64,000 bases of DNA, from NCBI RefSeq assembly GCF_001305575.3, contig NZ_CP012373.2:1426001-1490000 (forward strand), read 5' to 3'. The translations under genes and the position numbers were made by a program. Positions 16,055 through 27,659 of the stretch are shown one piece after another (within the stretch, counting starts at the first letter, position 1; each line of letters opens with the position of its first letter). The DNA comes from Beggiatoa leptomitoformis (GTDB taxonomy: Bacteria > Pseudomonadota > Gammaproteobacteria > Beggiatoales > Beggiatoaceae). Under the pieces are notes generated by a model. That model worked only from the letters and a program-made list of their open reading frames with translations, did no database searches and was not told the origin of the DNA.

Positions 16055-16109
16055 ATAATGAGATTTAATTAGATATTATCTATAAATCCAACTAATTAAG
16101 ACTGATTAG

Positions 16110-16145
16110 AACCTGTCAAGTTTACTAAACCTGACAGGTTTTTTT
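16110..16145 (+). terminator. Rho-independent terminator
   Basis: AACCTGTCA pairs with TGACAGGTT and is followed by a T7 tract, 56 bases after the transglutaminase gene. The stem is related to the terminator at 19304. Confidence 0.9.
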
Positions 16146-16180: not shown

Positions 16181-17167
16181 ATGCCAACACTACACGATAA
16201 AGGTTATAAAAGACTCTTCTCCAATAAAGTCTTCTTTCGCCAACTCCTAGAATCCTTCGTCCCTGAACCTTGGGTACAACACATTGATTTCGACACCTGT
16301 GAACGCCTTGAAAAATCCTTTATTACTGACCACTATAAAGAAACTGAAAGTGACTTAATTTATAAAGTTAAATTCAAACAACAAGAAGCCTATATTTATG
16401 TCCTGTTAGAATTCCAATCCTCCGTCGTTTGGTTTATGGCTCTCCGTGTTCTACACTACGTCTGTAGCTTCTGGTTAGATTTCGCAGAAACTCGCCCTAA
16501 ACAGAAAAAACTCCCGCCCATTTTTCCTATCGTCCTTTACAGTGGCGATAAACGCTGGACTGCCGCCGAGAATCTGCATGATATTCTGGAACATCCGCAC
16601 TTATTAAAAGCCTATACCCCTGAATTCCGCTATTTTAAAATTGCTGAAAATGAATATTCGCAACAACGGCTGTTAGAAATTCGCAACTTAGTTTCAACCC
16701 TATTTCTCGCAGAAACCTATCCGACAGATATGGCACTACTCAAAGAACAAGTTCTAAACTTATTTGAGGAGAAAACAGACAAAGAAGCGGCTTCATTATT
16801 TCTCAACTGGTTTGTACAATTAGTTGTACACAACCGACGTAATTTAGAAGATTATCAAGTATTAGAAACTATCTATCATGACAAGTTAGAGGCAAAAACC
16901 ATGTTAGAACACGCAATGGATAAAGAACGACAACAGGCTTTTGTGTTGGGAAAAATAGAGGGCAAGATGGAAGGTAAAATGGAAGGTAAAATGGAAGGCA
17001 AAGCAGAACTGTTAATAACTTTATTAGAAGCACATTATGGTCAATTAACAGATATGCAAAGAGCCAGATTGTTACAGCTCAGTGATGAAAGATTAACCTA
17101 CTTATCACTAAAATTGTTTCAGACAACCTCTCTAGCGGAATTTTGGCAGGAAGTGGAAGTACATTAA
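16181..17167 (+). CDS. Rpn family PD-(D/E)XK nuclease (recombination-promoting nuclease/putative transposase)
   Basis: The 328-residue protein opens with the Rpn signature (HDKGYKRLFSNKVFFRQLLE) and has the nuclease residues Asp in ESDLIYKV near residue 67 and ExQ in VLLEFQSS near residue 84. The C-terminal domain starts at an internal Met241 (MLEHAMDKERQQ), runs through a KIEG/KMEG repeat with 12-base DNA units, and ends in a helical segment. E. coli Rpn proteins are DNases linked to phage defence, and a product translated from inside the gene neutralises them. Here an internal AGAGG lies 8 bases before the Met241 codon, and that segment has been duplicated twice just downstream. The start has only a weak ribosome-binding site. 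Confidence 0.88.
   Translation: MPTLHDKGYKRLFSNKVFFRQLLESFVPEPWVQHIDFDTCERLEKSFITDHYKETESDLIYKVKFKQQEAYIYVLLEFQSSVVWFMALRVLHYVCSFWLDFAETRPKQKKLPPIFPIVLYSGDKRWTAAENLHDILEHPHLLKAYTPEFRYFKIAENEYSQQRLLEIRNLVSTLFLAETYPTDMALLKEQVLNLFEEKTDKEAASLFLNWFVQLVVHNRRNLEDYQVLETIYHDKLEAKTMLEHAMDKERQQAFVLGKIEGKMEGKMEGKMEGKAELLITLLEAHYGQLTDMQRARLLQLSDERLTYLSLKLFQTTSLAEFWQEVEVH
16888..16903 (+). promoter_or_regulatory. Internal ribosome-binding site and start within the Rpn gene
   Basis: AGAGG at 16888-16892 is followed by 8 bases and the in-frame ATG of codon 241 at 16901. Starting here would give an 88-residue C-terminal protein. The same site and spacing recur before 17222 and 17519, where they serve separate short frames. 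Confidence 0.55.
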
Positions 17168-17221
17168 TTACTGATTATTTAGTTAGAAACCATCTATCAT
17201 GACAAGTTAGAGGCAAAAACC

Positions 17222-17464
17222 ATGTTAGAACACGCAATGGATAAAGAACGACAACAGGCTTTTGTGTTGGGAAAAATAGAGGGCAAGATGGAAGGCAAAG
17301 CAGAACTGTTAATAACTCTATTAGAAGCACATTATGGTCAATTAACAGATATGCAAAGAGCCAGATTGTTACAGCTCAGTGATGAAAGATTAACCTACTT
17401 ATCACTAAAATTGTTTCAGACAACCTCTCTAGCGGAATTTTGGCAGGAAGTGGAAGTACATTAA
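17222..17464 (+). CDS. Free-standing Rpn C-terminal domain, copy 2 (candidate antitoxin)
   Basis: The 80-residue frame matches residues 241-328 of the adjacent nuclease apart from two missing KMEG units. A TAG lies in frame upstream, so it cannot be read as part of a longer protein, but AGAGG stands 8 bases before the ATG as in the parent gene. By analogy with E. coli Rpn small products it may oligomerise with and restrain the nuclease. It could instead be inert debris of a slipped duplication. Confidence 0.55.
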   Translation: MLEHAMDKERQQAFVLGKIEGKMEGKAELLITLLEAHYGQLTDMQRARLLQLSDERLTYLSLKLFQTTSLAEFWQEVEVH

Positions 17465-17518
17465 TTACTGATTATTTAGTTAGAAACCATCTATCATGAC
17501 AAGTTAGAGGCAAAAACC

Positions 17519-17761
17519 ATGTTAGAACACGCAATGGATAAAGAACGACAACAGGCTTTTGTGTTGGGAAAAATAGAGGGCAAGATGGAAGGCAAAGCAG
17601 AACTGTTAATAACTCTATTAGAAGCACATTATGGTCAATTAACAGATATGCAAAGAGCCAGATTGTTACAGCTCAGTGATGAAAGATTAACCTACTTATC
17701 ACTAAAATTGTTTCAGACAACCTCTCTAACGGAATTTTGGCAGGAAGTGGAAGTACATTAA
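17519..17761 (+). CDS. Free-standing Rpn C-terminal domain, copy 3 (candidate antitoxin)
   Basis: This 80-residue frame is identical to copy 2 except for Ala to Thr in SLTEFWQ. It keeps the same upstream AGAGG and in-frame TAG. Its downstream flank (ATTTGCATAAAAT) is probably the original end of the nuclease gene. A terminator follows at 17813. Confidence 0.55.
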   Translation: MLEHAMDKERQQAFVLGKIEGKMEGKAELLITLLEAHYGQLTDMQRARLLQLSDERLTYLSLKLFQTTSLTEFWQEVEVH

Positions 17762-17812
17762 TTTGCATAAAATATTTCACCTCATTAATCTCCTAATTCC
17801 CAAGACCTATCA

Positions 17813-17842
17813 AAATTTATACACCTAAATAGGTCTTTTTTT
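17813..17842 (+). terminator. Rho-independent terminator after the Rpn repeat array
   Basis: AGACCTAT pairs with ATAGGTCT and a run of seven T follows. It ends the Rpn unit and insulates the Fur-box promoter downstream. Confidence 0.85.
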
Positions 17843-17891
17843 ATCTCCACGCGATAAAGAGCGAATATGCATTATTTCTTTACATTATTAA

Positions 17892-26302: not shown

Positions 26303-26653
26303 TCAATGTAACCGTTGAATCTCTTCCGCCGATAACTGGGTTACTTTGGTAATTAACGCGATGGGTAGCCCTTCTGCTAGCATTTGCCGAACAATCTGTT
26401 GAGTTGCTTTATTGATACCTTGCTGTATGCCCCGTTCCATGCCTTGCCGTATGCCCTGTTCCATGCCTTGCTGTATGCCCTGTTCCATGCCTTGCTGTAT
26501 GCCCTGTTCCATGCCTTGCTGTACGTTCTCTTCAAAATGCTTTTCGTAGATTTCTTTAAATAAGGGATTTTCCATTAAATTAACGCGAATACCCATGGTA
26601 CGAACCTCTTTTTTTAGTAAACGGGATAGTTCTAGTTTATTGTTTGATGACAT
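26303..26653 (-). CDS. Free-standing C-terminal domain of an Rpn-like nuclease (candidate antitoxin)
   Basis: The 116-residue frame matches the last part of the 314-residue gene just upstream, starting at LEL before the LLKxEVRTM segment. It contains VNLMENPLFKE and an 8-residue QQGMEQGI repeat, and ends in the same TQLSAEEIQRLH-type tail. It has no nuclease residues. The likeliest start is not the first ATG but Met20 at 26596, preceded by GAGGT at 7 bases; this gives 97 residues. A hairpin repeat separates it from the parent gene. Function as an antitoxin is inferred from E. coli rpn genes. Confidence 0.6.
   Translation of the reverse strand: MSSNNKLELSRLLKKEVRTMGIRVNLMENPLFKEIYEKHFEENVQQGMEQGIQQGMEQGIQQGMEQGIRQGMERGIQQGINKATQQIVRQMLAEGLPIALITKVTQLSAEEIQRLH
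26594..26608 (-). promoter_or_regulatory. Ribosome-binding site and likely start of the free-standing Rpn C-terminal copy
   Basis: On the minus strand GAGGT is followed by 7 bases and ATG at 26596. The same bases also encode Glu-Val in the longer frame. The site is conserved with the one inside the full-length gene at 27080. Confidence 0.6.
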
Positions 26654-26714: not shown

Positions 26715-27659
26715 TTAATGCAACCGCTGAATCTCTTCCGCAGTCAATTGGGTTAATTTGGTAATTAACGTGATGGGTAGCCCTTCTGCTAGCATTTGCC
26801 GAGCAATCTGTTGGGTTGTTTTATTGATACCTTGTTGCTCGCCTTTTTCCATGCCTAGCTGTACGCCCTGTTCCATGCCTAGCTGTACGCCCTGTTCCAT
26901 GCCTAGCTGTACGCCCTTTTCCATGCCTTGCTGTACGCCTTTTTCCATACCTAGCTGTACGCCTTTTTCCATGCCTAGTTGTATGCCCTTTTCCATGCCT
27001 TGCTGTACGCCTTCTCCAAAATGCTTTTCGTAGCTTTCTTTAAATAAGGGATTTTCCATTAAATTAACGCGAATACTCATGGTACGAACCTCTTCTTTTA
27101 ATAAACTGGGCAGTTCTAATGGTCTAAGTCCTGATAAAACGGCTAGACGTGTTATGACATCATTCCGATGATTTTCTGCTAGCCCCGCAACTTTGTTTAA
27201 AACCCGTCTAACCGCTTCACGACGGTCTGGTAAACGACCTAGTAAACTTAAGATGTTATCGCTGATTTCTTCACTTTCTAATAAGCTAAGACAATCTAAC
27301 TCGCGAATATCAATTAATTGATAAGAAAAGTTTAGCTGTTTATGTTGGATAGTGGTGGTAAAACGGCTGGGTTTGTTGCCGACATATAATACTTGTTGTA
27401 TCGGTTCTATTTGATAAGCCTGATATATCAAGCTGTAATATTCCAATTCACGCCATTGCATGTCTGCATCATTATCACTTTGTAATTCTAAATGGTGGAT
27501 TTGTCCATTGGCTAATTTTGCAATAATATCAGGGCGACGTTGTTTTGTTTGAGAAAATTCTAGGTTTAATAATTCTACAGGTAATGCACCCCATAAAGTT
27601 TGAAAAAGTTGTTTTGGCAATTGTTGAAATAAGTCTTTTAGGGTGATGTCGTAGTGCAT
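26715..27659 (-). CDS. Rpn-like PD-(D/E)XK nuclease with C-terminal GMEKG repeats
   Basis: The 314-residue protein has an N-terminal nuclease domain with Asp in RRPDIIAK near residue 44 and ExQ in HHLELQSD near residue 58. This is followed by a helical region and a run of about seven 8-residue repeats of the form VQLGMEKG encoded by 24-base units. It ends with a TQLTAEEIQRLH tail. The N-terminal domain differs from that of the 16181 gene, but the layout is the same. An internal GAGGT-N7-ATG at 27080 could start a 121-residue C-terminal product, and that segment is duplicated downstream. Confidence 0.85.
   Translation of the reverse strand: MHYDITLKDLFQQLPKQLFQTLWGALPVELLNLEFSQTKQRRPDIIAKLANGQIHHLELQSDNDADMQWRELEYYSLIYQAYQIEPIQQVLYVGNKPSRFTTTIQHKQLNFSYQLIDIRELDCLSLLESEEISDNILSLLGRLPDRREAVRRVLNKVAGLAENHRNDVITRLAVLSGLRPLELPSLLKEEVRTMSIRVNLMENPLFKESYEKHFGEGVQQGMEKGIQLGMEKGVQLGMEKGVQQGMEKGVQLGMEQGVQLGMEQGVQLGMEKGEQQGINKTTQQIARQMLAEGLPITLITKLTQLTAEEIQRLH
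27078..27092 (-). promoter_or_regulatory. Internal ribosome-binding site and start within the second Rpn gene
   Basis: GAGGT (27092-27088) lies 7 bases before the in-frame ATG at 27080 (VRTM-SIRVN). The region between nuclease and repeat domains is where E. coli rpn genes start their small products. Confidence 0.55.

Follow-up and report, generated by a model that had tools for sequence, protein, structure and literature searches.

Two free-standing copies of an internally encoded rpnS, a candidate antitoxin gene, follow an rpn nuclease gene of Beggiatoa leptomitoformis

Layout of the rpn locus

The plus strand of the window, i.e., the whole 64,000-nucleotide stretch analysed here from the genome of Beggiatoa leptomitoformis (one contig of 4,265,317 bases), carries an intact gene, rpnL (16181..17167), for a predicted PD-(D/E)XK nuclease of the Rpn family (recombination-promoting nuclease; COG5464) with 328 amino acids. 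Rpn is a recently recognised toxin-antitoxin system of phage defence in which one gene lies inside the other. Inside rpnL, a predicted internal ribosome site (16888..16903), composed of AGAGG (16888-16892), a spacer of 8 nt, and the ATG of codon 241 (16901), opens the intragenic rpnS (16901..17167) of 88 amino acids. Two tandem units follow on the same strand, the first of 297 bp (17183..17479), with homology to rpnL from 39 nt before the ATG onwards, and the second at 17480..17761, counted up to its stop codon. Each contains a free-standing rpnS of 80 amino acids: copy 1 is located at 17222..17464, with its Shine-Dalgarno sequence (SD) at 17209-17213 and two 4-residue repeats at 17276-17299, and copy 2 at 17519..17761, with its SD at 17506-17510 and two repeats at 17573-17596. 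An in-frame TAG precedes the ATG of both copies (17180-17182 for copy 1 and 17477-17479 for copy 2), and both are separate downstream open reading frames that have their own start and comprise the C-terminal domain only. An earlier note on this DNA had described an Rpn-type nuclease gene in which AGAGG-N8-ATG opens codon 241, followed by two tandem duplicates keeping AGAGG, ATG, and TAG and encoding 80 residues; all of this agrees with our analysis, but the note missed that the copies have two repeats instead of four, and its statement that the duplicated segment starts just before the internal site translates into the 39 nt given above.

An intrinsic-terminator-like hairpin followed by a T run lies on the plus strand between the upstream gene and rpnL (16108..16145; RNA folding energy -16.1 kcal/mol, z -5.6), and a second terminator-like hairpin with a T run and an 18-nt loop is present 3′ of copy 2 (17802..17843, plus strand; -8.6 kcal/mol, z -3.95). 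Both became visible by direct RNA folding; a simple consensus terminator scan found neither of them because of its loop limit. Folding of the intergenic stretches between rpnL, copy 1, and copy 2 revealed no unusual structure, and matches to sigma-70 promoters at the locus occurred only at chance level. With hairpins only at the two ends and ordinary stretches between the genes, rpnL and the two copies look like one transcription unit.

Family assignment and predicted structures

The 328-residue protein matches PF04754 (YhgA-like/Transposase_31 N-terminal domain) with 113.6 bits (1.2e-32; cut-off, 21) and scores 41.9 bits against TIGR01784, under the cut-off of 52.1. Residues D58 and E77-F-Q79 are invariant among 34 relatives, as expected of a PD-(D/E)XK nuclease, and by these sequence features the gene is a predicted Rpn nuclease. 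The match of its C-terminal part to DUF4351 is weak; the scores of copy 1 and copy 2 for this domain are 26.9 and 25.8 bits, respectively (cut-off, 25).

AlphaFold2 was used to predict the structures of RpnL and RpnS. The RpnL model features a long helix (residues 235 to 286) with the internal start near its beginning; this helix holds four 4-residue (12-nt) repeats, IEGK-MEGK-MEGK-MEGK, encoded at 16955..17002 on the plus strand. In the RpnS model (pLDDT 84), one long helix (residues 3 to 38) is accompanied by three short ones, and the repeats begin 18 residues past the internal start, within the first helix. Searches of the PDB by sequence and by fold with RpnL and RpnS gave no significant match.

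Conservation of the internal start

In 37 of 38 related genes, a start codon aligns with codon 241, and every one of the 37 is preceded by an SD match, compared with 3 of 200 other in-frame ATGs. Of the Glu codons that make up the SD, 38 of 47 read GAG, versus 116 of 744 Glu codons upstream in the same genes; as the genes are kin, P values from these counts overstate their independence. Judged from these alignments, a chance origin of the site is excluded. The choice of GAG at conserved Glu positions indicates selection on the nucleotides themselves and thus points to an internal ribosome site selected at the nucleotide level, and the internal start is almost certainly used.

Divergence of the copies from the parent gene

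Outside the repeat tract, copy 1 differs from the tail of rpnL by two substitutions, one synonymous inside rpnS and one before its ATG, and copy 2 shows an additional Ala-to-Thr change, so that the difference between parent and copy 2 outside the repeats amounts to one synonymous and one nonsynonymous substitution. Both copies lack 24 nt corresponding to two of the four repeats of the parent, with IEGK MEGK left. Being near-identical, the two copies appear to be recent; they are too young and hold too few differences to provide a measure of selection by themselves. The closest paralogue, L022, which has nine repeats, carries the base of the copies at both point differences, and the parent rpnL therefore seems to have been altered after the duplication. 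The nuclease part of L022 (1278-2301; genome 363.3-364.3 kb) is broken by a short deletion, with the tail and the internal start intact, making it in effect a predicted orphan antitoxin gene.

In the sister genome, the locus is missing from the corresponding position, and the genes that flank it in the window lie far from one another there. The same architecture occurs at other loci.

Recurrence of free-standing rpnS copies

One of these loci lies in the window itself, approximately 10 kb from rpnL. A second, distantly related Rpn-like gene on the minus strand (26715..27659; 314 amino acids; TIGR01784, 43 bits with a cut-off of 52) has an internal AGAGG-N8-ATG at 27080 and is accompanied by a free-standing C-terminal copy on the same strand (26303..26596; 97 amino acids from the conserved ATG within the ORF 26303-26653). 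This copy, which keeps its SD and the complete AGAGG-N8-ATG, is six 4-residue units shorter than its parent. At L151, a 94% identical paralogue of the second window gene, only a decayed copy fragment is present. The window genome (G000) is altogether very rich in Rpn-like genes: its 4.27 Mb contain 12 matches to PF04754 and 53 to TIGR01784, several of them in tandem arrays; named relatives that turned up were Thioploca, Thiomargarita, and Albibeggiatoa. Within the window genome and the sister genome, the architecture recurs at L024, L025, L027/L029, L060, L063, L067, and L068, besides 26303-26596. In contrast to the window locus, these loci mostly have single copies and older divergence; L024 has two copies as well, and the decoupling of repeats described below is mostly alike. 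In the sister genome (G001), rpnS copies stand beside a decayed rpnL remnant at L173, and at L179 an rpnS without adjacent rpnL was found, indicating that rpnS genes can outlive their toxin.

For an unbiased count, 43 ORFs from rpn genes were compared with their own 3-kb flanks by tblastn. Nearly all partial copies obtained were C-terminal and included the internal start. L165 (the L024 locus) and L173, the latter beside the decayed gene, had two each, L166, L168, L170, L172, L175, L182, and L183 had one each, and the window locus contributed its own. Apart from these, the comparison yielded tandem duplications of whole genes and two short fragments of the N-terminal part; a further free-standing copy is found after a broken gene at L063. 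Such copies have originated about a dozen times. Measured upstream from the start, the 5′ breakpoints are at 10, 11, 13, 14, 15, 15, 21, 38, 39, 51, 58, and 257 nt, so that 11 of 12 are no more than 60 nt from the internal ATG, mostly at differing sites (P = 1.5e-11 under a uniform model). This clustering would fit either retention of units made up of start plus domain or a local hot spot; since the sequences at the breakpoints are unrelated, retention of functional units is favoured. The strong SD is gone from two sibling L024 copies, and the SD at L067 is weak.

Selection on the free-standing genes

When free-standing rpnS genes were compared with the rpnL tails outside the repeats, a dN/dS of 0.285 was obtained (bootstrap over pairs, 0.23 to 0.33). 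This value replaces one of 0.20 over whole tails, in which the repeat tracts misalign. If free-standing rpnS were unconstrained, half of the divergence would have accumulated at a ratio of 1, and a value of at least about 0.5 would be expected; as a class, they are therefore judged to be under purifying selection. The two free-standing copies at L058 gave a dN/dS of 0.13 when compared with one another.

Repeat numbers of RpnS and the neighbouring RpnL

Repeat number was unequal between a free-standing RpnS and the adjacent RpnL in 12 of 13 pairs, with the two window copies counted once. Expressed as RpnS minus RpnL in 4-residue units, the difference is -2 for both window copies (2 versus 4), which accordingly lack the equal number expected of a cognate antitoxin of the adjacent RpnL. 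It is -6 at the second window locus; +3 and -1 at L024; -1 net at L025; +1 at L027, L029, L063, and L067; -3 at L068; +3 at L079; and +1 for rpnE/ypaA of K-12. The one difference of 0 is that of L060, where the repeats are identical at a dS of 0.37; this shows that equal numbers, as expected of a cognate antitoxin, are sometimes retained as well. Note that repeat tracts mutate fast, so that mismatch arises without constraint too. L029 (2714-3232) and L027 (3782-4168) carry a commonly inherited rpnS, recognisable by a shared Ile-to-Thr change; at both, RpnS exceeds the RpnL of its locus by exactly one repeat, though the rpnL genes differ by two.

In E. coli, the combinations of rpnE and downstream rpnS repeat numbers were (0,1), (5,1), (5,2), (1,4), (8,4), (5,0), and (6,2), i.e., none of seven distinct combinations was equal, and rpnC and rpnCS had equal numbers in none of eight strains. 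As few matches are expected by chance, these counts fit repeat numbers that vary independently and do not call for avoidance. The K-12 ypaA gene (L120, 5817-6002) is marked as a pseudogene in RefSeq, and its counterparts in many other strains are labelled "incomplete" with the N-terminus missing. As ypaA has all the appearance of an ordinary free-standing rpnS and its protein, RpnES, has been detected in E. coli (PMC10327210), the label is likely an annotation artefact.

Discussion

The RpnS proteins made inside rpn genes are antitoxins (Zhong et al. 2023, PMC10327210). The same study reported free-standing downstream rpnS genes of independent origins, namely ypaA after rpnE and rpnCS after rpnC, and their annotation as DUF4351 in some species. 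The earlier note had taken the arrangement to be undescribed, which does not stand; going by sequence, the window locus belongs to a known kind, an Rpn toxin-antitoxin gene accompanied by two free-standing rpnS copies of recent origin. Of particular relevance is the published finding that RpnC with one added repeat escapes inhibition by unmodified RpnCS and that the reverse holds too, a rule derived from one protein and one repeat that may not extend to the window family (PMC10327210). Applied to 2 versus 4 repeats, it predicts that the free-standing copies should not inhibit the neighbouring RpnL.

Our favoured reading, to which we give about an even chance of being correct, is that the free-standing RpnS of the window are antitoxin-type proteins with a specificity apart from the resident RpnL. 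By sequence, the copies arose through a tandem duplication that began a short distance before the internal ribosome site and left each copy its own start; all three RpnS proteins would be made. RpnS would act via its long first helix, with the number of 4-residue repeats setting the partner, so that the intragenic RpnS with four repeats would inhibit the resident RpnL with four, and the free-standing RpnS with two would be out of register with it and target other or former RpnL alleles. In a secondary role, the copies may supply alternative tails for recombination into rpnL, as fused E. coli rpnE genes suggest. The earlier note had offered diversified partner specificity as one of two purposes, and this proposal fits the data better than the other, but no 2-repeat toxin of the same subfamily was found in the window genome.

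Its other proposal, a raised antitoxin dose, would make the free-standing RpnS an excess inhibitor of the resident RpnL, with the difference of two repeats tolerated. The copies retain SD and ATG and share the apparent transcription unit with rpnL; in E. coli, the smaller protein usually outnumbers RpnL and the downstream RpnES is made (PMC10327210), and the L060 pair has remained identical in its repeats. Yet with repeats unequal in 12 of 13 pairs and in every rpnE or rpnC pair read from E. coli, and with RpnC inhibition abolished by a single extra repeat (PMC10327210), an added dose for the present RpnL is probably not what the copies provide, and we regard this explanation as unlikely. It is improbable, too, that the window copies are just a recent tandem duplication without function of their own. 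The near-identity of the copies, the absence of the locus from the corresponding position of the sister genome, and the decayed fragment at L151, sibling of the second window locus, would suit such an origin; it is opposed by the dN/dS of the class, lying well under the 0.5 or more of unconstrained genes, by the ratio at L058, and by breakpoints that nearly always spare the start.

Tail exchange alone, with the free-standing genes serving mainly as stored tails whose recombination into rpnL changes toxin and internal antitoxin together, appears very improbable to us, since such cassettes would have no need of an SD and ATG that nearly all copies keep, and exchange by deletion would consume them. 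Direct repeats would nevertheless favour the process, and a fusion of the N-terminal part of rpn with rpnS has been noted (PMC10327210). Of 60 E. coli genomes sampled evenly, about 26 have a single-gene rpnE, and in both examples read (L210, BL21; L211, HH97) it has an S-type tail, apparently because the rpnE tail was replaced by that of the downstream rpnS via deletion between direct repeats. A function of free-standing rpnS as a phage-borne anti-defence gene was also considered and found no support, as no relative turned up in viral contigs, which were scanned with one short pattern, or in phage records.

The most useful result is a general one: taken together, separate rpnS genes are conserved, as far as substitution rates indicate, yet most of them differ from the adjacent toxin in repeat register, the reported specificity feature, K-12 ypaA included. 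Tentatively, and with the balance tilted somewhat against it, one may extend this to a selected standing repertoire of off-neighbour specificities across distant bacteria, directed against incoming or repeat-changed RpnL or kept as tail donors. If this were true, an Rpn locus would behave as a toxin accompanied by a small set of immunity proteins that are off register with it.

Compared with published systems, the main text of PMC10327210 makes no mention of a repeat mismatch between neighbours, and what is new here is this mismatch together with the indicated nucleotide-level selection of the site, the repeated origins, the breakpoints, and the class-wide constraint. The intragenic RpnAS to RpnES and RpnS of C. 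difficile have, as in the window, an internal ribosome-binding site and ATG at a helical C-terminal domain with repeats in helix 1; in intragenic RpnS antitoxins, variable 4-residue repeats lie 8 to 20 residues after the start, in line with the 18 residues found here. For RpnAS, a dimer with a three-helix fold has been published; one long and three short helices are predicted for the window RpnS. The window adds to these systems two outside copies with another repeat number. The closest counterparts are rpnE-ypaA and rpnC-rpnCS of E. coli, which likewise combine an internal start with a downstream C-terminal copy on the same strand and unequal repeats, the homology of ypaA to rpnE beginning at the ribosome site; in contrast to them, the window locus has two recent tandem copies, a domain of the DUF4351 type, and a different bacterial family as its host.
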